Assembly: GCF_020740795.1 (NCBI RefSeq)
Contig: NC_067282.1
Location: forward strand, 153,746,858 to 153,810,857
Source: Apus apus
Lineage: Eukaryota > Chordata > Aves > Apodiformes > Apodidae
DNA: 64,000 nucleotides
Reading direction: 5' to 3'
The notes beneath the pieces were generated by a model. It did no database searches. It saw nothing but the letters and a program-made list of their open reading frames with translations, and was not told where the DNA came from. The position numbers and the translations under genes were made by a program. Positions 1,729 through 46,445 of this stretch are shown here, piece after piece. The stretch's first letter is position 1, and every line of letters starts with the position of its first letter.

Positions 1729-4700
1729 GTAAGTTGAATTCTTCTTTGCACCCCAGTGATTTTGTTTTGATCTCATGGTGGTACTTGAATAAGCAGTGGG
1801 GTAAATGCCATTGATGGCTATCTCTCCCTCTGGATTTTGTAGCTTTTGTTGCAGTTTTCCAAATCCTTGGGTAGGACAGCATGTGCTCTTTCACGGCGTT
1901 GTTTTGGTGTCTGTGCAGCTATTTCTGCAGAGTTTGTCCATTGATTAGGGAATGGCTGAACTAGCACTTTGTCCTAACATTATTCTGAAAGAGACTATGA
2001 CTGTAAGATGACTAAGCTTGGACTAGACTTTTGCCCTCAATTCTTGCTCTGTTTTTGAAGCCCTATGATGAGTGAAAGCGCCAATGTTGCCAGTTTGGGA
2101 GCCATGCCAACAGCTCAACCATCCAATACGGGAATTCGAAAGCAGTGGCATGAAGACATTACTCAGGATCTCCGAAATCACCTTGTTCATAAATTGTGAG
2201 TAACTAATATCAAAACAACACACTCTGGGCAGGAGGGGGGGGGGGGGGGGCCGGCAGGAGGAAGCCTGGCTTCCAAAACTAGGGAACTAGGGGCCCAGGA
2301 GTGAGTTTTGTCAGTGCCCATGAGAAGGGAAAGCAGAAGCCCAAAAGATGGAGCTGCGTCTGCTGGACTGGGGCTGTTGTACTGGGAGTGCCCCACTCTG
2401 TGCTCAATCTGTCTACACAGGGGCAGCATCTCCTGGAAAACTGGCTTGTTGCTTTGTGTTCAGATCTCTGGGGTTAGTGCTGATATCCTGGTCTGGAGAC
2501 AAACTAATCACGTGTGTGTTTTTTGCCACCCACAGAGTCCAAGCCATATTTCCTACTCCTGACCCTGCAGCACTGAAGGATCGGCGTATGGAGAATCTGG
2601 TGGCGTATGCTCGGAAAGTGGAAGGGGATATGTATGAGTCAGCAAACAGCAGGGTGAGATATGACATCTTCTGTTGTCCAGTCGTGTGTATCTCTGCCTT
2701 GATCCCGTAGTGGTTGTGGAGGAAGAGGAATGAAGGCACAGATGAGAGTTCCAGGCTGAGGAAACGTGTGTTCAGGGGCTGCTGGATGGGGTCTGGGCGC
2801 CAACCAGCTGCATGCTTCTGCCTGGGTGTGCCCGGAGTCAGGGTGGTGCCCGTTGGGGTGTGATGTGCTCAAGACTTCTCAGTGTTCCCTGAAGGCAGAT
2901 GGAGCTCTTCACTGTGATTTTCATAAAGAAGTGACAGACATGAGACATGAGAAGAGCAATGTCTGGTGTTGGTCTAATGGTTGCCTTTTTGCCCTTCTAT
3001 CTGTGTGGCAGCCCCTCAAAGAGAGAGCTACCCACACCCAAGCTGAAATGGGGGGAGGGTTGGGGAGGGAAGCAGATGTGAGGCTGTTTTGCAAACTGGA
3101 AAGTACTGTAAGCTGTTGTCTTTACTTAATGCGTGTGTTGTCATCTTTCATGGTTTGAATTTCTCCTCAACAGGCAGAGTACTATCACCTGCTGGCGGAG
3201 AAGATCTACAAGATTCAGAAGGAGTTGGAGGAGAAACGAAGAACCAGGCTGCAGAAACAAAACATGATCCCAAATGCTCCAGGCATGCCACAGGCTCCCA
3301 TGAATCAAGGGCCCAACTTGGGACAGCCACAGCCAGGGATGTCTGCAAGTAAGAACAGTTGGGTTACTGACTACCTGGTGCAGGGAAATCCTGTACAATC
3401 GTTTTGGTAGGGTGGTGACCATTTTGCCCTTCTTGTTTCACAGGTACCTGACTTGCTCACATTTAAACAGAACTTTCTTGTCTTTGTTCAGAAGTACTTT
3501 TAAAATCTTTGCTTATATGTTAAATAATGACTGTAGTTTATCTAAAAGCTTTTAAGTCTTCTCAAAAAATAGATATACTCTTCTGTACTTCGGCTGAGGG
3601 TGGAGAGGATGGGGCTTAAGTTGCTTCCTGACATTTTAGAACAGTCTCTCAGTAGATTCACCTCTAGAATGAATTTAGTGAAAGATAACTTCAATTACTA
3701 GAAGAGAAATACATATTTTCATAATAGTTTTGTGCTGCTTAAAATTTTTGTCACTATTGGTATTGTTGCTAAGCAGAGAGTATGATTATTTGAGTTCTTA
3801 GGTATTGTATTCCTTTGAAAGTTTAGATATACTGCTTGTTCTGTGCCATGTTCAAGTTCTGTTACTTGAAGTAACCTTCCTAATGCTAGACAGATTTATT
3901 TATTTATTAATATAATATTCCTTGTTAACCATGCATTTATATATTAGAATAAATGTGATTTTGGAGACGAATTAATGAGGACTAGTGCAGCCTGGTGTAG
4001 TGTGAGGTTGGAACCTGCTGATCTTTAAGGTCCCTTCCAACCTTAAATATTCTGTGATTTTATTATTGTGGGTGATATTTCTGGTTAGAAAGTGGAGAGA
4101 GGCATCTGCTGACATTGTAGTCTTGTGTTTCCAGTTAGGTCTTGTAAATAATTGAAATACTGAACTTTTCTAAAGAAAATTGCATGCCATACTCTTAATT
4201 TAACTTTAAAAGGAGAACTAATTTTTTTTAAACTATTTAAGTCTGCTTTATGACTTTTTTTGTCTTTGTGATTCTGGACTGGCAGCTCTGGAGACTGAAA
4301 TAGTCTTTCTTAAAACCAAGTGCCACAGTTCTGCAACCATACTTTTCTAGAATACTGCCCTTCCTCCTCCCCCTGTGACCCTCTCTCCTGAGAGCTTCCT
4401 TCTCAGAAGGATTTTTCTCCTTCATTCTTTCAGTCTGGCATGATCTTAGATACTTTACAGTTAAGAATGGAGTGCTTCAGACACCTCATGGAAGCAGATG
4501 CATAGCTGCCTGTGACACTGTAATAAATGTCAAAAGATTGGGGCAAAATTTGAAGTAGTAACTGAGGAGACAAAAAACTTCCTGTTTTTTTCCTAACATT
4601 GCAGAAAGATCTAGTAGCTCCAGGCATATGCTGCAAGAATCTTCACCCGAGTTCTTTTTCTCCTGCTTAAATTTTAATCTATCTTTGTAAATCCAGTTCT

Positions 4701-31930: not shown

Positions 31931-32502
31931 GAATGCAGCATCACATGCAGCAGATGCAGCAAGGAAACATGGGACAAATAAGCCAGCTTCCACAGGCGAT
32001 GAGTGCAGAGCCAGGAGCCAGTTTGCAGCAAGCTTTCCAGCAGAGGCTCCTTCAGCAGCAGATGGGGTCCCCAGCTCAGCCCAATCCTATGAGCCCCCAG
32101 CAGCACATGCTCCCCAATCAGGCCCAGTCCCCGCACCTACAGGGGCAGCAGCTCCCTTCATCGCTCACCAATCAAGTGCGTTCTCCGCAGCCTGTACCCT
32201 CACCGCGGCCCCAGTCCCAGCCCCCCCATTCCAGCCCATCTCCCCGGATGCAACCTCAGCCTTCTCCGCACCACGTCTCCCCACAGACCAGCTCCCCACA
32301 TCCAGGACTGGTAGCTGCCCAGGCAAACCCCATGGATCAAGGGCACTTTGCCAGCCCGGACCAGAGTGCAATGCTTTCCCAGCTCGCTAGCAATCCCGGC
32401 ATGGCAGGCCTCCATGGTACAAGCGCCACGGAACTGGGGCTCAGCTCCGAGAACTCAGACTTGAATTCAAACCTTTCACAGAGTACACTAGACATACACT
32501 AG
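1635..32502 (+). CDS. EP300: EP300, histone acetyltransferase p300 (3' 25 exons; 5' end outside window)
   Basis: p300 is a nuclear transcriptional coactivator that transfers acetyl groups from acetyl-CoA to histone and other lysines and bridges activators to the transcription machinery. Twenty-five exons were placed by protein similarity, GT/AG sites and phase. Joined, they give 5,819 nt that stay in frame to the TAG at 32,500 (about 1,939 residues). Domain order is KIX, bromodomain, CH2 RING/PHD, acetyltransferase, ZZ, TAZ2, IBiD and a Gln-rich tail, as in p300/CBP. The C-terminal STLDIH, the p300-type linkers and L3MBTL2 downstream favour EP300 over CREBBP. The first visible exon enters in phase 1, so at least six upstream exons are missing. 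Exon numbers used here count back from the last exon as human 31. I see no frame break. Confidence 0.97.
2061..2195 (+). CDS. EP300: EP300 exon (human 8), start of KIX
   Basis: 135 nt encoding [13 protein letters not shown].. through [18 protein letters not shown], the first KIX helix. The donor GTGAGT follows TT of the split Leu codon. The last 60 nt or so are duplicated at 42,570-42,629. Confidence 0.96.
2536..2653 (+). CDS. EP300: EP300 exon (human 9), KIX core
   Basis: 118 nt encoding [17 protein letters not shown], then [18 protein letters not shown] and ANSR. It covers the middle of KIX, which binds phospho-CREB, MYB and MLL. Paralogous copy at 42,979-43,096. Confidence 0.97.
3174..3348 (+). 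CDS. EP300: EP300 exon (human 10), KIX last helix and linker
   Basis: 175 nt encoding [20 protein letters not shown], the third KIX helix with its tyrosines, then [17 protein letters not shown] and a Gln/Pro-rich linker. Donor GTAAGA. Paralogous copy at 43,610-43,784. Confidence 0.97.
3998..4062 (+). repeat. CR1 LINE 3' end fragment
   Basis: A short remnant with the CR1 3' signature: a GGTCCCTTCCAACC-type block followed by ATTCTGTGAT. It lies in the intron before exon 11. Confidence 0.7.
4795..4890. repeat. Intronic repeat copy 1 (ancient dispersed element?)
   Basis: Contains ATCTTCAGCAGTAGATGTGA and GTAGTTCTCAAACTTCAGA. The same blocks, slightly diverged, recur at about 5,865-5,965. The TGGTTCTCAAA-like block resembles old hAT-type MITEs, but the family was not established. 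Confidence 0.5.
5300..5377 (+). CDS. EP300: EP300 exon (human 11)
   Basis: 78 nt encoding [19 protein letters not shown].., the p300 linker after KIX. Acceptor TTTTTCCAG, donor GTAAAT. Confidence 0.94.
5865..5965. repeat. Intronic repeat copy 2
   Basis: Contains ATCTTCAGCAGTCGATGTGA and AGTGGTTCTCAAAATTCAGA, matching copy 1 in the same orientation. The two copies bracket the 78-nt exon at 5,300-5,377. Confidence 0.5.
6197..6306 (+). CDS. EP300: EP300 exon (human 12)
   Basis: 110 nt encoding [20 protein letters not shown].. to GAMNQ. Low-complexity linker, donor GTCAGT. Confidence 0.93.
6769..6924 (+). CDS. EP300: EP300 exon (human 13)
   Basis: 156 nt encoding [20 protein letters not shown].. 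to TPVSQ. Linker rich in Gln, Pro and Met; donor GTAGGT. Confidence 0.93.
6925..7978 (+). other. EP300: EP300 intron 13
   Basis: About 1 kb of AT-rich intron. No gene, repeat or RNA was recognised. Confidence 0.65.
7979..8419 (+). CDS. EP300: EP300 exon (human 14), Pro/Gln linker
   Basis: 441 nt beginning [20 protein letters not shown] and containing [17 protein letters not shown], a conserved p300/CBP linker. Donor GTAAGG. Confidence 0.95.
8924..9112 (+). CDS. EP300: EP300 exon (human 15)
   Basis: 189 nt beginning [20 protein letters not shown] and ending in an acidic stretch (EKSE). Donor GTAAGA. Confidence 0.94.
9425..9700 (+). repeat. CR1 LINE 3' fragment
   Basis: About 275 bp with the CR1 terminal consensus: GGGGAGGTTTAGATTGGATA, AACGGGCTGCCCAGGGAAGT and TTTCCAACC..ATTCTGTGATTCTAT. 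Sense orientation, in the intron between exons 15 and 16. Confidence 0.9.
10059..10215 (+). CDS. EP300: EP300 exon (human 16), acidic linker
   Basis: 157 nt encoding [20 protein letters not shown].. to PAAGQSKKK. It contains a VKVEP-type motif resembling the SUMO consensus (psi-K-x-E). Donor GTAAGC. Confidence 0.94.
10799..10917 (+). CDS. EP300: EP300 exon (human 17), start of bromodomain
   Basis: 119 nt encoding [20 protein letters not shown] and [19 protein letters not shown], helix Z and the ZA loop of the acetyl-lysine-binding bromodomain. Confidence 0.97.
10918..12193 (+). other. EP300: EP300 intron 17, within the bromodomain
   Basis: AT-rich intron of about 1.3 kb. Nothing else was recognised. 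Confidence 0.65.
12194..12433 (+). CDS. EP300: EP300 exon (human 18), bromodomain core
   Basis: 240 nt encoding [19 protein letters not shown], then [19 protein letters not shown]. The Asn of the [10 protein letters not shown] segment is the conserved acetyl-lysine contact of bromodomains. Confidence 0.98.
12995..13083 (+). CDS. EP300: EP300 exon (human 19), bromodomain end / CH2 start
   Basis: 89 nt encoding [20 protein letters not shown] then DATYYSYQN. It leads into the Cys-rich CH2 region. Donor GTAAGG. Confidence 0.97.
13084..15539 (+). other. EP300: EP300 intron 19
   Basis: About 2.5 kb, with a short TA/TG microsatellite near 13,675-13,692 and an A/C-rich run near 15,320-15,370. No gene or RNA was recognised. 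Confidence 0.65.
15540..15620 (+). CDS. EP300: EP300 exon (human 20), CH2 RING
   Basis: 81 nt encoding [20 protein letters not shown] then DPSQPQ. The CxxC pair belongs to the RING fold. Confidence 0.97.
15621..17987 (+). other. EP300: EP300 intron 20
   Basis: About 2.4 kb of AT-rich intron. The frame at 16,141-16,500 looks like chance, because no flanking splice pattern or known protein similarity was seen. Confidence 0.65.
17988..18044 (+). CDS. EP300: EP300 exon (human 21), CH2
   Basis: 57 nt micro-exon encoding [18 protein letters not shown]. Acceptor CTCCATAG, donor GTAAGT. It is too short for ordinary ORF calling. Confidence 0.96.
19468..19545 (+). CDS. EP300: EP300 exon (human 22), PHD
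   Basis: 78 nt encoding [20 protein letters not shown] then IIWPS. These are Cys/His ligands of the PHD finger. Confidence 0.97.
20606..20673 (+). CDS. EP300: EP300 exon (human 23), PHD end
   Basis: 68 nt encoding [19 protein letters not shown] then SAK. It holds the last PHD CxxC and a basic segment before the acetyltransferase domain. Confidence 0.96.
20674..22259 (+). other. EP300: EP300 intron 23
   Basis: About 1.6 kb of AT-rich intron with nothing recognised. Confidence 0.65.
22260..22410 (+). CDS. EP300: EP300 exon (human 24), acetyltransferase start
   Basis: 151 nt encoding [20 protein letters not shown] and [17 protein letters not shown], the N-terminal part of the acetyltransferase domain. 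Confidence 0.97.
22740..22886 (+). CDS. EP300: EP300 exon (human 25), acetyltransferase
   Basis: 147 nt encoding [20 protein letters not shown], then [20 protein letters not shown]. The GSD segment includes the Asp at human position 1399, a commonly mutated activity residue. Confidence 0.98.
23289..23402 (+). CDS. EP300: EP300 exon (human 26), acetyltransferase
   Basis: 114 nt encoding [20 protein letters not shown] then [17 protein letters not shown]. It is part of the acetyl-CoA-binding fold. Confidence 0.98.
23403..25149 (+). other. EP300: EP300 intron 26
   Basis: About 1.75 kb between two catalytic-domain exons. No repeat or gene was recognised. Confidence 0.65.
25150..25315 (+). CDS. 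EP300: EP300 exon (human 27), acetyltransferase active site
   Basis: 166 nt encoding [20 protein letters not shown] then [20 protein letters not shown]. It contains the Trp of GHIWACP and the Tyr of QEWYKKM (human W1436 and Y1467), both central to catalysis. The donor is the weak GTTTGT. Confidence 0.98.
25980..26144 (+). CDS. EP300: EP300 exon (human 28), acetyltransferase
   Basis: 165 nt encoding [40 protein letters not shown] and the acidic/basic run before the autoregulatory loop. Donor GTAAGA. Confidence 0.97.
27143..27341 (+). repeat. CR1 LINE 3' fragment
   Basis: About 200 bp in sense orientation: GGGGAGGTTTAGGTTGGATA, GAAGCACTTCCTCACGGAAA and a TTTTCCAGCC..ATTCTGTGATTCTG terminus. 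It lies in the intron between exons 28 and 29 (26,145-28,096), which is otherwise plain. Confidence 0.9.
28097..28258 (+). CDS. EP300: EP300 exon (human 29), autoregulatory lysine loop
   Basis: 162 nt encoding [20 protein letters not shown] then a [10 protein letters not shown] segment. This is the Lys-rich loop that p300 autoacetylates to switch on. The second residue is Ser; human has Thr there, as I recall. Confidence 0.97.
28694..28975 (+). CDS. EP300: EP300 exon (human 30), acetyltransferase end / ZZ start
   Basis: 282 nt encoding [20 protein letters not shown].. and [18 protein letters not shown]. It closes the catalytic domain and opens the ZZ zinc finger. Confidence 0.98.
28976..30255 (+). 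other. EP300: EP300 intron 30
   Basis: About 1.3 kb ending in acceptor CTTTGCAG. Several open frames occur but none has recognisable similarity. Confidence 0.65.
30256..32502 (+). CDS. EP300: EP300 terminal exon (human 31): ZZ, TAZ2, IBiD, Gln-rich tail
   Basis: 2,247 nt with stop TAG at 32,500. It starts [20 protein letters not shown] (end of ZZ). TAZ2, with repeated Cys/His clusters ([29 protein letters not shown]), lies at about 30,370-30,650. A Pro/Gln linker follows. The IBiD/NCBD, which binds p53, IRF3 and p160 coactivators, lies at about 31,340-31,490 ([33 protein letters not shown]). Two poly-Gln runs sit at 31,801-31,821 and 31,897-31,929. The long minus-strand frames here are shadows of the CAG-rich sequence. 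Confidence 0.98.
30370..30650 (+). other. EP300: TAZ2 (CH3) zinc-binding domain within EP300 terminal exon
   Basis: The Cys/His spacing HACQC..NCSLPSC, HTKGC..CPIC and HAKHC..CPVPFC matches the three zinc sites of TAZ2, which binds E1A, p53 and other activation domains. Boundaries are approximate. Confidence 0.93.
31897..31929 (+). repeat. EP300: Poly-glutamine run (11 Gln), CAG/CAA mixed
   Basis: Eleven consecutive Gln codons lie between GVGYP and RMQHH. CAA interruptions are present. The human protein has a shorter run at this point, as I recall. Confidence 0.9.
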
Positions 32503-33695
32503 ACACGTTGTAGCATTTTGGGAGCAAAAAAAAAAAAAATAGAAAAGAAAAGAAAAAAACTTATTTTCTCAAGACTTTTTGTACTGAAGACAAATTTTTT
32601 TGAATCTTTCTTAGCTAAAACAACATTTTTCCCTGGAACACATCTGAACTCTGCAGCAGTAGTTTGTGGTTTTAAAAACAAACCAACAACGAACCTGAGG
32701 GACAGTAGAATACAAAGAATATATTTTTGTTATGGCTGGAATCATAACCAGTCCTTTTTCTTGTTTTGTTTTGTTTTTTTTTCCTCGTGTGCGTTGGGGA
32801 GGTCAGGGGAAGAGGGTGGTCTTTTGGCTGTTCACCGAAGGATGCCCTACTCATGCCTCCAATAGGTTTTATTTTTTTTTTAAATTAATGAAAATATGTA
32901 ATATTGATAGTTATTATTTACTGAGGCAGATGGTAAACATTTTCCCTATTCTGGTTTTTCTTCAAGTCACTGCAAAAAAAAAACAAAACACCACAACAAA
33001 ACAACAACCAACAAAAACCAAAACCACAGGAGAACCTTTCCCTAAAACCGGAGGACAAAAGGGGTTAATGTTGCTTTAAAAATACATTACATATATAAAT
33101 ATATATATATATAAAAATAAATACCAATCTTTTCCTCTTTGGTTGGAAATACGTCAATTCTTTGAAAAATGTGTAAAAATATTAAATAACTCGGTTCCCT
33201 CCTGAAGTCTACTTTTGTCCTCCAAGAATTTTCTATACAAGAGTCTGAGCTTAAAAACTTCAAGTATTAAAATAATTTGTACATGTAGAGAGAAGACAAC
33301 ATTTTTGCAAATACACAGGGGCAGCTGCCAAATGGATGTAGTATATATATTGTGGTTTCTGTTTTCTTGAAAGAATTTTTTTTGTTATTTTTACATCTAA
33401 CAAAGGAAAAAAAAATAAAAAAGAGGGTAAGAAACAATTCCAGTGGGATGTTTTTAACCTGAGAAAAAGTCCCTGGGGTTTCTTCTTTATGCTTGCTTTC
33501 TCTCTCCCATGCCCCTTTCCCACCCTCTTCCACTTTCTGTAAAACTTGAAAATAGAAAGCAAAAAACCCTCAAATGTTGTAAATCATGCAATTAAAGTTG
33601 ATTACTTATAAATATGAACTTTCAATCACTGTATAGACTGTTAAAAATTGATTTCTTATTACCTATTGTTAAATAAACTGTGTGAGACAGACAGC
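32503..33695 (+). other. EP300: EP300 3' UTR
   Basis: AT-rich sequence between the stop codon and the poly(A) signal, containing A-rich and T-rich runs and a TA repeat at about 33,088-33,112. No gene-like frame. The exact cleavage site was not determined. Confidence 0.85.
33672..33677 (+). terminator. EP300: EP300 poly(A) signal AATAAA
   Basis: Canonical hexamer followed by a GT-containing stretch. The context (GTTAAATAAACTGTGTGAG) resembles the end of mammalian EP300 transcripts as I recall them. Upstream AATAAA copies at 33,116 and 33,414 could give shorter 3' ends. Confidence 0.8.
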
Positions 33696-41400: not shown

Positions 41401-42290
41401 AATTCCAAAATCCAGTCTCTACATCCACCCTGTGAGCAGAGGGTTATCTCACCAGTCCCATGGGTTGACAGCTGGAGGTGTGACTTGAGTCTAACAGCCC
41501 CCATGCTGCTATGGCTTGTAATTGCAGTCACTGGGTGGGTTAGAGCCACCAGAAGGTCGAATTTCAAAATAATGAGTTTAAAAATAAAGACCTCAGGTTC
41601 TCTGTTTGCTTACTCTTTTCTCAGTCTGAGCTTATACTGAAGTATTTCAAACCTTTTTTCTGTCACTTGGGCCCAATTCCCCAACATCTTCACAGATAGA
41701 GAGAGGGCTCTTAGCAGCTTGGGAAAGCACATGTAATGGGGTGTCCATCTTAGTAAATTGCATATAATATGTCAGGCCATATGGATGTTTTAATGCCTCA
41801 GTTACTAGATGGACTTACTGGTCCTCCAGGCCACCCCTTCTGCTGGGGAAGGTGACCTGGCAGGGCATGGTGGTGCCCTGTATCTTCCCATGCTTGCAGA
41901 GGAAACGGGCAGCACAGCTCAACACTCAACAGCCAGATATTTCTGGGAAATGAGATGAGGTAAATACTTAAAACTGAGAGGTTTACCTCCCAGACAGTTT
42001 ACTCTTTTCTCCTCTTCTCAGGACAGCCTTAGAACCGGGCATAGTCGTTGGTTTTTCTAAATCCAGACACAATTTTTTGTGTTACTTTTACATTTTTATT
42101 ATTATTTGTATGCAGCGCTGTGTTGACATATGCTGGCAGACCTTAGCTGGGATGCTCGTTGGGTCTGGCGTCAGGTTATTTGTTCACCCCACAGGCTGTC
42201 AGCTGCACGGCGTGATTTACTAACAGGTTGCTGTAAGGACGTAAGAACGCCAGCGCAACATGAAGGATGCTCTGACAAGGGTTTTCTCTA
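38420..42290. other. Intergenic sequence upstream of the KIX copy
   Basis: About 3.9 kb in which I recognise no gene, RNA or repeat family with confidence. The long frames here lack homology and splice context. Confidence 0.55.
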
Positions 42291-42516
42291 CGCCCCGCAG
42301 CCCTTGAGAACTAGGAAGCAGCGACGGCTTCGCCCTCCTGCCTCAGAGCCGGCTGTGACGTGTTCCCAGCGGCCGCACCCCATCCCCGACCATCCCCGAT
42401 CCCTCCCTGCCTGCCGGGACACCCCCGCCCCCGACAGCGGCTTTGCACCGACGCCATTCCGGTGCGTGTTGCGGAGCCGGTGCTTCCTTCGGGGAACTGC
42501 AGCAGCCTAAGTCGCT
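42290..42516 (+). promoter_or_regulatory. GC-rich putative promoter / 5' UTR of the KIX-only gene
   Basis: CpG-rich sequence set in AT-richer surroundings, immediately before the candidate start codon. It includes a CRE-like core TGACGT at 42,356-42,361 and several GC-rich blocks. No TATA box is evident. It does not match the EP300 side of the duplication. The transcription start is unknown. Confidence 0.45.
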
Positions 42517-42629
42517 ATGACCTTCAAGTTACTCCTGGGGTCAGGAGGCTCCGACCTGTCAGAGGGCGGCCAGAAGCAGTGGCACGGAGACGTTCCTCAG
42601 CATCTCCGAAACCACCTTGTTCATAAGTT
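42517..42629 (+). CDS. KIX-only gene exon 1 (new start plus first KIX helix)
   Basis: 113 nt. The first 57 or so nt are unrelated to EP300. From AAGCAGTGG onward it aligns to EP300 exon 8 with seven substitutions in 56 nt: four change residues (E to G, I to V, T to P, D to H) and three are silent. The donor GTGAGT is conserved. Confidence 0.55.
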
Positions 42630-42672
42630 GTGAGTAGCTAATATCAAAACAGCACACTCTGAGGTGTTGGGG

Positions 42673-42708
<36 letters not shown>

Positions 42709-45700
42709 GAGGAAGCCTGGCTTCCAAAACTAGGGGCCCAGGAGTGAGTTTTGTCAGTGCCCATGAGAAGGAAAAGCAGAAGCCCAAAAGATGGAGCTGC
42801 GTCTGCTGGACTGGGGCTGTTGTACTGGGAGTGCCCCACTCTGTGCTCAAGCCGTCTACACAGGGGCAGCATCTCCTGGAAAACTGGCTTGTTGCTTTGT
42901 GTTCAGATCACTGGGGATAGTGCTGATATCCTGGTCTGGAGACAAACTAATCACGTGTGTGTTTTTTGCCACCCACAGAGTCCAAGCTATATTTCCTGCT
43001 CCTGACCCTGCAGCACTGAAGGATCGGCGTATGGAGAATCTGGTGGTGTATGCTCGGAAAGTGGAAGGGGATATGTATGAGTCAGCAAACAGCAGGGTGA
43101 GATATGACATCTTCTGTTGTCCAGTCGTGTGTATCTCTGCCTTGATCCCGTAGTGGTTGTGGAGGAAGAGGAATGAAGGCACAGATGAGAGTTCCAGGCT
43201 GAGGAAACGTGTGTTCAGGGGCTGCTGGATGGGGTCTGGGCGCCAACCAGCTGCATGCTTCTGCCTGGGTGTGCCCGGAGTCAGGGTGGTGCCCATTGGG
43301 GTGTGATGTGCTCAAGACTTCTCAGTGTTCCCTGAAGGCAGATGGAGCTCTTCACTGTGATTTTCATAAAGAAGTGACAGACATGAGACATGAGAAGAGC
43401 AATATCCTGTGTTAGCCTGATGGTTGCCAGCAGTGCCCTGAACAGTGCCCCTTTTTGCCTTCCTGAGTGGCAACCCCTGCAAAGGGAGAGCTACTCTCAT
43501 CCAAGCTGAAATGTGTGAGACTGTTTGGCAAGCTTGGATCATTGTGACCTGTTGTCTTTACTTAATGCGTGTGTCATCATCTTTCATGGTTTGAATTCCT
43601 CCCCAACAGGACGAGTACTATCACCTGCTGGCGGAGAAGATCTATAAGATTCAGAAGGAGTTGGAGGAGAAACGAAGAACCAGGCTGCAGAAACAAAACA
43701 TGATCCCAAATGCTCCAGGCATGCCACAGGCTCCCATGAATCAAGGGCCCAACATGGGACAGCCACAGCCAGGGATGTCTGCAAGTAAGAACAGTTGGGT
43801 TACTGACTACCTGGTGCAGGGAAATCCTGTGCTGTCATCATCATCATGGTGGTGACCATTTAGCTTTATTTTTCTGTTTTCATTTCACAGTTACCTTTGT
43901 AAACTTGGTCTGCCAAAAGTTAAGCAGAACATGTTGGTTTGGGCTTTTTATTAGGATTTATTCTGTTTGCTTGTTGGTTTTCTGAGCTGCTATACCTTCC
44001 TTTTTCAAGGACAGTATTGTGAACATATGACCAAGGGCTACAAGTCTATAAACATTTTTTCCTCAAAATGGCTGCCTTCTCCAGTGCTGATGACAAAAAC
44101 ATTAACCCTTGTAGTGCTTTGTGGGTTTTTTTAAATATTCATACAGTGTCACTATAGGAGGTGAGAGGGAAAACATTCCTAAAGCCATGTTCCACTTCTC
44201 ACTGCAATAATTTGGAAGGTGGCCCTGTACCCAGAATGGCTGCCACTTGGTGCTGGAAGCGAAACTAGGCCCATGAGCTGCCAGGATTCTCATGAGCTCT
44301 TGGAAATGACAGAGAGTAGAAAACTGAAAAAAGAGGCTCTGGAGGAGCAGCGGATGAATTTGTGAAGCCTGGAGACCTGGAGCATGAGCTCTTCAGCCCA
44401 GAGCACAGGTGAGAGGACAGTCCCAGTAGACAAGCACAAAGAACCCGTGTGCTAACGCTCCTAAAGGAAGGTGTGGTGATGAAGGACAGAGCTGGTGATC
44501 AAGTACAAAAAGCTTCTCCAGCTGCACAGTAAGCAGTTGAGTACCTGTGTCCAGCTCTGAGAAAGCAGCCTGGCTTTTGTCCTACAAGAATAATCCCTCC
44601 CATTGCATCCTGGACTCCTTCTGTGCTTTTACCTGGCAGTAGCCTTTTCATAAAGATCTTTCTGAATTTTGTATTTCACAGGGCATCAAAACAGAGACCA
44701 GGACCAGAGCAGCAGTAGGGAAGGAGACAGGAAAAGTGAAGTCTAATCTAAGTTTTAGAATTTCATTTCTTGACATTGTTAGGATTGTTATATCCCTGAA
44801 GAAAGGGGCTGGCTTTACAAAGATAATTGAATCATGGATTGTATGGGGTTGGAAGGGACCTATAAAGGTCATCTAGTCCAAGCCCCCTACAATAAGCAGG
44901 GACACCTCCAACTAGATCAGATTGCTCAGAGCCCCATCAAGCCTAACCTTGAATGTCTCCAGGGATGGGGCCTCCACCACCTCTCTAGGCAACCTGTTCC
45001 AAAGACCCACCACCCTCATATTAAATAACTTTTTCCTAATGTCCAACCTAAATCTACCCTTTTCTAGTTTCAAACTAATATCGCTTGTCCTATCATTACA
45101 TGCTCTTCTAAACAGGTCTTCCCCAGCCTTCTTACAGGCTCCTTTCAGGTATTGGAAGGTTCCTATAATGTATCCCAGGAGTCTTCTTCAGGCTGAACAA
45201 CCCCAACTTCCTCAGTCTGTCTTCGTAAGAGAGGTGCTCCAGCCCTCTCATCATTTTTGTTGCCCTCCTCTGGACACGCTCCAACAGTCCTTCCTGTGTT
45301 GGGGGCTCCAGAGCTGGATGCAGCACTCCAGGTGGGGTCTCACCAGAGCAGAGTAGAGGGGCAGAAGCACCTCTCTTGATCTGCTGGCCACACTTGTCCC
45401 GATGCAGCCCAGGATGCGGTTGGCCCTCTGGGCTGCAATTGCACATTGGTGGCTCATGTCCAGCTTTTGATCCACTAGTACCTCCAGGACTGCTCTCTAG
45501 CATGTCTTCCCCCAGCCTGTATTCATATCTCTGGTTGCCCTGGCCCAGGTGCAGGACCCCGGACTCAGCCTTGTTGAACCTGGGCCCACTTCTCCAGCTT
45601 GTCCAGGTCCCTCTGGGTGGCAACCCATCCCTCTAACATACAGATTGCACCACCCAGCTTAGTGTCATTGACAAACAATGTTACAGAACCAAGTTTTTTA

Positions 45701-46219
45701 TTATTAAAGATAAGTATTTATTAATCAATGTTAATCTGATTAAAATGAAATTATTTAAATACTACTATTGTTGAAAAGAACCACAATATTTAGAACCACA
45801 ATGACAAATGAACAGCCATGGGATTGTGACTGCCTCTAAATCTGTTCTGTGTCAAGACAGAACTTGTTTTTGCTCAAGCTCTCAGGAAGCCTTGAGCCAG
45901 CCTGCCTGTGACCTGAGGGAGCAGTGCTGCTCATTCCACTCGGAAGGAAGCAGGATGCACACGAGCAACAGCGCATAATGTGTTACGTGAACGACTATTG
46001 CAGTGGAAGGATTTAATGAACTTTTGATTTTGTGTATTTTCTGGAAATACATTTGTTGTCTGTCATGCAGTGCACTGTCAGCAGCATTTGCAAGGGAATA
46101 ACAGGCTTTATAATTTATTTAATTATCAGCTGCATTATTAAAGTACTTTAAAAGCTGTTTTCTGTTTCTTAACAGTGCTGGAGGTTTGTTTGGAAAACCT
46201 GAACCTGGAGGACGTCTGA
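42517..46219 (+). CDS. Predicted stand-alone KIX-domain gene from partial EP300 duplication (4 exons, about 149 aa)
   Basis: Four exons (42,517-42,629; 42,979-43,096; 43,610-43,784; 46,176-46,219) join in frame to 450 nt with a TGA at 46,217. Residues 1-19 are new ([19 protein letters not shown]). Residues 20 to about 101 are a complete KIX domain ([11 protein letters not shown].., AYARK read as [20 protein letters not shown]). A p300 linker follows, then a new tail ([14 protein letters not shown]) if the last exon is real. An in-frame TAA at 42,508 fixes the ATG, which has G at -3. All donor and acceptor sites in the duplicated part are intact. If exon 3 is not spliced, the frame stops at 43,853 (about 158 aa). 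Function is unknown; a p300/CBP competitor is inference. An unexpressed duplicate cannot be excluded. Confidence 0.6.
42674..42705 (+). repeat. Poly-G tract (32 G)
   Basis: An uninterrupted G run in the first intron of the KIX copy. The matching EP300 intron has 16 G at 2,235-2,250. The length may be assembly-sensitive. Confidence 0.9.
42979..43096 (+). CDS. KIX-only gene exon 2 (KIX core)
   Basis: 118 nt, same length and phase as EP300 exon 9, with three substitutions: GCC to GCT (silent), T to A in FPAPDP, and A to V in NLVVYARK. Splice sites intact. Confidence 0.65.
43610..43784 (+). CDS. KIX-only gene exon 3 (third KIX helix and linker)
   Basis: 175 nt, same length and phase as EP300 exon 10. 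It begins DEYYHLL where EP300 has AEYYHLL and differs at four or so positions. Acceptor CCCCAACAG and donor GTAAGA are intact. Confidence 0.65.
43856..44830. other. Candidate intron 3 of the KIX-only gene, proximal part
   Basis: About 1 kb with no repeat or exon that I recognise. Similarity to EP300 fades after about 43,895. Confidence 0.55.
44835..45690 (-). mobile_element. Inverted CR1 LINE fragment (3' end and ORF2 C-terminal region)
   Basis: Reads as the reverse complement of a CR1 3' region: GGTTGGAAGGGACCTATAAA, GTCATCTAGTCCAAGCCCCC, CTGAACAACCCCAACTTCC and GCAGCACTCCAGGTGGGGTC. The minus-strand frame at 45,251-45,475 ([20 protein letters not shown]) is the decayed ORF2 C-terminus. Confidence 0.93.
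45690..46175. other. Unassigned sequence before the candidate terminal exon
   Basis: About 0.5 kb, AT-rich. No feature was recognised apart from the acceptor at its end. Confidence 0.55.
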
Positions 46220-46445
46220 CACTAGGGAAATCTGCTGATCGAGTTGCAGTCAGGAGGCTTTGCGAGCTCCCCGCCACTGTTCCTCTGCGAGGAGAGAATC
46301 CTTTGTACCATTAAGAAGCTGTGCTATAAAACGCGTAAAAATTTTAAAACCAATTGCGTAGCAAAGTAAGCGCTTAAAGGCCTGTTCTGCGTAGGTAATG
46401 CTCTTTTTTTTTTTTTTTTTTGCTAAATAAAGCATCTGTTTATGC
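46176..46445 (+). CDS. Candidate terminal exon of the KIX-only gene (CDS to 46,219, then 3' UTR)
   Basis: A strong acceptor (TTTTCTGTTTCTTAACAG) precedes a sequence that, joined to exon 3, adds [14 protein letters not shown] and a stop. AATAAA follows at 46,426-46,431, about 1 kb before the L3MBTL2 start. No homology supports it; it is inferred from signal order and phase only. Confidence 0.35.
46426..46431 (+). terminator. Candidate poly(A) signal AATAAA
   Basis: Canonical hexamer after an 18-T run and before the L3MBTL2 CpG island. It belongs to neither EP300 (ends 12.7 kb earlier) nor L3MBTL2 (starts downstream), so it fits the KIX-only gene. A chance match is possible. Confidence 0.35.

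Follow-up and report, generated by a model that had tools for sequence, protein, structure and literature searches.

A short gene encoding little more than the KIX domain of p300 very probably lies between EP300 and L3MBTL2 in the swift Apus apus. It comprises four exons and 149 codons and occupies positions 42517-46219 of the window (the whole stretch of 64,000 nucleotides that was analyzed). Domain assignment and structural modeling show a predicted product in which the KIX domain is folded and its flanks are disordered; the protein ends in a short acidic-leucine tail and lacks a catalytic domain. The gene appears to be retained under moderate constraint, which is strongest on exons 2 and 3 (where conversion acts as well) and on the tail.

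Structure and origin of the KIX-only gene

All four exons are located on the forward strand. Exon 1 (42517..42629) joins a new leader of 19 residues to the remainder of EP300's first KIX exon, a layout that recurs in other birds. Exon 2 (42979..43096), defined by alignment with EP300 and by its splice sites, encodes KIX sequence, and exon 3 (43610..43784) encodes KIX helix 3 plus a proline/glutamine-rich linker. The terminal coding exon (46176..46219), which shares its first codon with exon 3, adds a tail of 14 residues followed by TGA; homologous tails are present in 12 other named birds. A poly(A) signal, AATAAA, is found at 46426..46431 on the same strand. In the swift, frame, phases, and splice sites are all intact; neither a broken frame nor broken splice sites, as in a pseudogene, were found. 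The stretch upstream of the ATG (42250..42516, strand not assigned) is rich in GC and CpG and promoter-like by composition (GC 0.56-0.64, CpG observed/expected 0.84 and 0.59 in 500-nt windows). The last intron harbors a dispersed repeat (44823..45676, strand not assigned), which we take to be CR1, with 40 further genome matches overlapping that part of the query. Upstream, the last ORF of EP300 ends at 32502 and is followed by AATAAA at 33672; downstream, there is a CpG island at 46.5-48 kb, and the ORFs there presumably belong to L3MBTL2.

The conceptual 149-aa product is 100% identical over 149 residues to a database protein, P0002, 'histone acetyltransferase p300-like [Apus apus]'. Other 3′ ends were considered (two alternative frames of the last exon, and read-through of exon 3 to the stop at 43855) and rejected, as the homologous tails fix the frame beginning at 46176: bird homologues end in tails that agree with it. 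The query of the first protein search carried a wrong-frame tail and, thus, did not contain the true one, which is why the homologous tails constitute independent confirmation of the terminal exon. The terminal exon with poly(A) signal, which the original prediction had offered only as a possibility, is therefore upheld, with two corrected starts, 43610 for exon 3 and 46176 for the last exon.

The block 42574-43830 repeats EP300 2140-3394 (forward strand), which takes in the end of the first KIX exon, the second and third KIX exons, and both KIX introns. The full local alignment extends at lower identity to 43930 and comprises 1250 ungapped columns, 95.4% of which are identical when poly-G is masked; a long poly-G run is found in the copy's first intron (42674-42706), and a shorter one at the corresponding site of EP300. 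Alignment and exon boundaries agree that the KIX exons were duplicated with frame, phase, and splice sites intact, as had been predicted. The breakpoint at 42574 falls within EP300's first KIX exon. Because the EP300 homology starts inside this exon, the leader is not encoded by a separate ATG exon; the predicted new start and leader hold, whereas the leader shares its exon with KIX helix 1. For the terminal exon, no EP300 counterpart was found within the window. Searching all six translated frames of the genome at the protein level placed KIX at three loci only: EP300, the KIX-only gene, and a locus on contig C15, which is presumably CREBBP.

A processed retrogene or retrocopy is ruled out because both KIX introns were duplicated. 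An assembly duplicate is ruled out as well: identity to EP300 falls to 81-88% in parts of the block, with indels, and other birds have homologous proteins. Through a partial duplication of EP300 at the DNA level, the KIX exons came to lie between EP300 and L3MBTL2; there, they acquired the leader, the CpG-rich start region, and the new terminal exon. The sequence and its predicted homologues show that this duplication predates the divergence of kiwi from the remaining birds.

Distribution, probable gene conversion, and constraint in birds

The first protein search yielded 524 proteins among 592 candidates, the best 120 of which were examined. Among these, short p300- or CREBBP-like proteins were present in 17 named birds, and models were full-length in 13 (Apus, Pelecanus, Aptenodytes, Harpia, Balearica, Calonectris, Egretta, Athene, Rhynochetos, Rissa, Aythya, Anser, and Anas), spanning 10 orders. 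The taxonomy look-up covered 12 of the 17 birds and returned 11 orders, kiwi's included; Egretta, Anser, Anas, Tyto, and Calidris were assigned to orders from general knowledge. The tail is common to 12 of the 13 full-length proteins and to the kiwi (Apteryx) model, which is partial (94 aa); the listed Harpia protein, an isoform X2, has a different end. A stand-alone KIX product, as proposed from the swift sequence, is thus supported by automatic models with the leader-KIX layout in at least 13 named birds plus the partial one of kiwi, all of them automatic predictions pre-selected for open frames. No further named birds appeared among the best 120 of 867 proteins from a profile search (5963 candidates), or in a tail-directed search (22 proteins of 22), whose eight new proteins, P0131-P0138, represent exon 3 read into the intron, without the tail. 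Chicken, songbirds, parrots, crocodiles, and turtles were absent by name from the matches listed; as cluster members are unnamed and only the best 120 rows were covered, this does not imply absence from these animals.

The bird models P0002-P0009, P0011-P0015, and P0029 bear the name 'histone acetyltransferase p300-like', which is functionally wrong for a predicted protein lacking the acetyltransferase domain and which keeps the KIX-only gene out of study. 'Isoform X2' labels, present on the Harpia, Athene, and Rissa models, hint in database names at transcript support. Another protein, P0010 (184 aa; 1562-nt contig; five cluster members; source code 'lgn'), is intron-free from KIX through exon 3 into the tail, with EP300-type sequence preceding KIX. 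We take the source to be assembled public reads and the EP300-like start to be an assembly chimera; given this chimeric start, the junction of exon 3 and tail points to a spliced transcript, the RNA origin being putative. P0010 could also be taken literally, in which case the tail exon would mainly belong to a fusion transcript: upstream EP300 exons would be spliced to it, and the product would be a truncated p300. We consider this very unlikely: the transcript would have to bypass many exons of EP300 along with that gene's poly(A) site, assembly across near-identical KIX exons accounts for P0010 more simply, and the named full-length models begin with the separate leader.

Exchange with the parental gene is evident in the swift. 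A run of 247 nt identical to EP300 (43048..43294, forward strand; part of exon 2 and the following intron) represents a conversion tract; its length was reached in 1 of 10000 permutations, and the other parts of the block show the lower identity given above. Across birds, with swift EP300 as the only reference, the 18 KIX residues of exon 1 are identical to EP300 in five of the 13 (pelican, crane, egret, little owl, and kagu), and three to nine of them differ in the remaining eight. A copy-specific GEV is common to Tyto, penguin, harpy eagle, shearwater, and kittiwake; at the same site, Athene and the other four birds of the EP300-identical set read EDI. In EP300 exon 3, at window positions 3318-3320, swift EP300 reads NLGQ, the swift copy and nearly all other listed bird copies read NMGQ, and the kittiwake copy reads NTGQ. 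The simplest reading is repeated conversion, presumably in the direction from EP300 to the copy, which would refresh the KIX exons of the latter.

Such conversion might be the main reason why the KIX exons stay open in a duplicate without protein function, the gene models being by-products of automatic annotation. Consistent with this are the tract in the swift, the identity of exon 1 with EP300 in five of 13 birds, the fast evolution of leader and exon 1, and models from three birds that are truncated or degenerate (Tyto and Gymnogyps, 99 aa each; Calidris, 84 aa). According to the original prediction, frame-breaking mutations in close relatives together with the lack of any spliced transcript would make the locus a pseudogene; these three models agree with that in part, and the swift gene is intact. 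However, leader and tail have no EP300 counterpart and are nevertheless in frame in 12 named birds; conversion from EP300 cannot reach either of them. The Tyto (P0024) and Gymnogyps (P0025) proteins end at the same place (after ELEDK/ELQEK), perhaps through independent losses at the same arginine codon.

Neutral simulations were used to gauge this conservation. Mean tail identity among the 13 birds was 0.73; star simulations with 11 lineages gave means of 0.73, 0.62, 0.54, and 0.46 (95th percentiles 0.82, 0.72, 0.65, and 0.58) at divergences of 0.08, 0.12, 0.16, and 0.2 per lineage. From bird rates and dates, we assume 0.12-0.2 to be realistic for these birds. At the same four divergences, the whole frame remained open in 2.9%, 0.2%, 0.1%, and 0% of 2000 neutral lineages simulated without conversion, and leader plus tail alone remained open in 21% to 5% (divergence 0.1 to 0.2), both of which argue, the second more weakly, against a functionless duplicate. 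Between Neoaves and Anatidae, identity was 0.69 for the tail, 0.35 for the leader, and 0.54 for exon 1. The divergence of leader and exon 1 corresponds approximately to the neutral expectation, and the tail value is compatible with neutrality to an extent depending on the assumed divergence, identity of at least 0.70 being reached by 51%, 28%, 15%, and 5.8% of neutral pairs at 0.1, 0.13, 0.16, and 0.2. For exon 1 of the swift EP300/copy pair, pS was 0.295 and pN 0.091, from only 18 codons, too few to carry weight. Taken together, we regard the absence of any protein function as unlikely, though it deserves to be taken seriously.

KIX domain, tail, and proposed function

A KIX domain was assigned by Pfam in all four proteins scanned (PF02172; 133.6 bits for swift and 100 bits for mallard, cut-off 27). 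As predicted, the 149-aa product lacks the p300 acetyltransferase: the Pfam scan of this protein returned KIX-type families only, neither acetyltransferase nor bromodomain. AlphaFold modeled the KIX core with pLDDT block means of 69-94 for swift and 71-95 for mallard, the copy least similar to swift's in the bird alignment; leader, linker, and tail are of low confidence in both. The swift model has the three-helix fold and matched nine PDB entries at E ≤ 0.001, all of them CBP/p300 KIX, with MLL/MYB, MYB, and phospho-KID among the ligands. T614, which we take to be an MLL-side residue of KIX, is changed in six of 15 bird proteins, including the swift's. Of the 17 bird proteins, 16 retain Y650 and A654, and 15 retain Y658; the exceptions are Calidris, which loses Y650 and A654, Tyto, and Anser, which has Y658F. 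Two studies describe these three residues as a tested loss-of-function set for binding of CREB and MYB (PMC12424780, PMC3858336). As fold and CREB/MYB pocket are mostly kept, the product should still dock CREB/MYB-type domains, and it should be unable to acetylate.

The tail is short, acidic, and leucine-rich. In nine of 13 named birds, it contains L-x3-L-x2-L-x-L, the pattern of a class 1a CRM1 nuclear export signal; the background frequency of this leucine-only pattern is 0.13% in random intergenic 14-mers and 0.27% in 14-mers from the retrieved proteins. The wider pattern (hydrophobic-x3-hydrophobic-x2-hydrophobic-x-hydrophobic) is present in 11 of the 13, with Anser and Anas failing; its background is 3.8% and 1.6%, respectively. 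According to the NESmapper report (PMC4168985), polar, proline-rich flanks tend to precede true export signals, position-dependent repression is exerted by acidic residues and by asparagine in the spacers, and export-signal predictors over-call. The swift tail is likewise preceded by a polar, proline-rich flank, and it probably provides CRM1 export or a different contact through a leucine motif.

The product would most likely bind activation domains that dock to KIX, phospho-CREB and MYB first, and, through this binding, compete with p300/CBP. Many activators depend on p300/CBP as a limiting hub. A non-catalytic KIX protein acting as such a decoy is our tentative reading, to which we give somewhat less than an even chance. 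A more elaborate version, in which the free KIX domain together with its own export signal forms a dedicated sink that draws phospho-CREB and MYB away from p300/CBP while conversion keeps its surface matched to that of the parent, is doubtful. The opposite effect, whereby KIX would hold an activator and the acidic-leucine tail recruit another partner, raising transcription, is even less probable; the character of the tail and the existence of plant KIX adaptor proteins speak for it, and yet the tail is modeled with low confidence, helical over a short stretch in swift but not in mallard. If competition is the true function, birds possess a widespread, built-in natural competitor that could modulate programmes dependent on CREB and MYB, and an unusual domain-only paralogue renewed by conversion from a parental gene at a distance of 40 kb.

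Comparison with known KIX proteins and decoy paralogues

The proteins were already known as automatic database models under a misleading name. Among the titles and abstract openings listed by the literature searches, a stand-alone KIX gene of birds was not described. What appears to be new is the pairing of a free KIX domain, itself well known, with a novel tail that is conserved in part, rather than a new kind of system.

Free KIX sequences were also encountered outside birds. The bat Molossus nigricans has a predicted protein of 268 aa (P0122) in which a p300-derived KIX occurs twice in tandem, apparently the product of a free-KIX gene that arose independently, and the armadillo Dasypus has a 'p300-like isoform X2' of 214 aa (P0017) with a diverged KIX, possibly a separate partial copy. 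P0123, P0125, and P0130 are short proteins for which the search listing shows a single KIX domain or two, and no further recognised domain. In plants, KIX8 and KIX9 are free KIX proteins. Like the bird gene, these plant proteins and P0122 have KIX without an acetyltransferase, but origin and flanks differ, and the bird tail is absent from P0122.

With the KIX of p300/CBP (PF02172; PDB 5svh, 1kdx, and 9jej), the bird gene has the fold, the exon structure, and most residues of the CREB/MYB pocket in common. In contrast to p300/CBP, the bird KIX stands alone between a new leader and a new tail, and acetyltransferase, bromodomain, and zinc-finger domains are absent. Dominant-negative or decoy partial paralogues likewise keep a binding domain and lose the effector domain; the bird copy differs from them in being, as its sequence suggests, refreshed by conversion from the parental gene, and the inhibition it would exert is putative.
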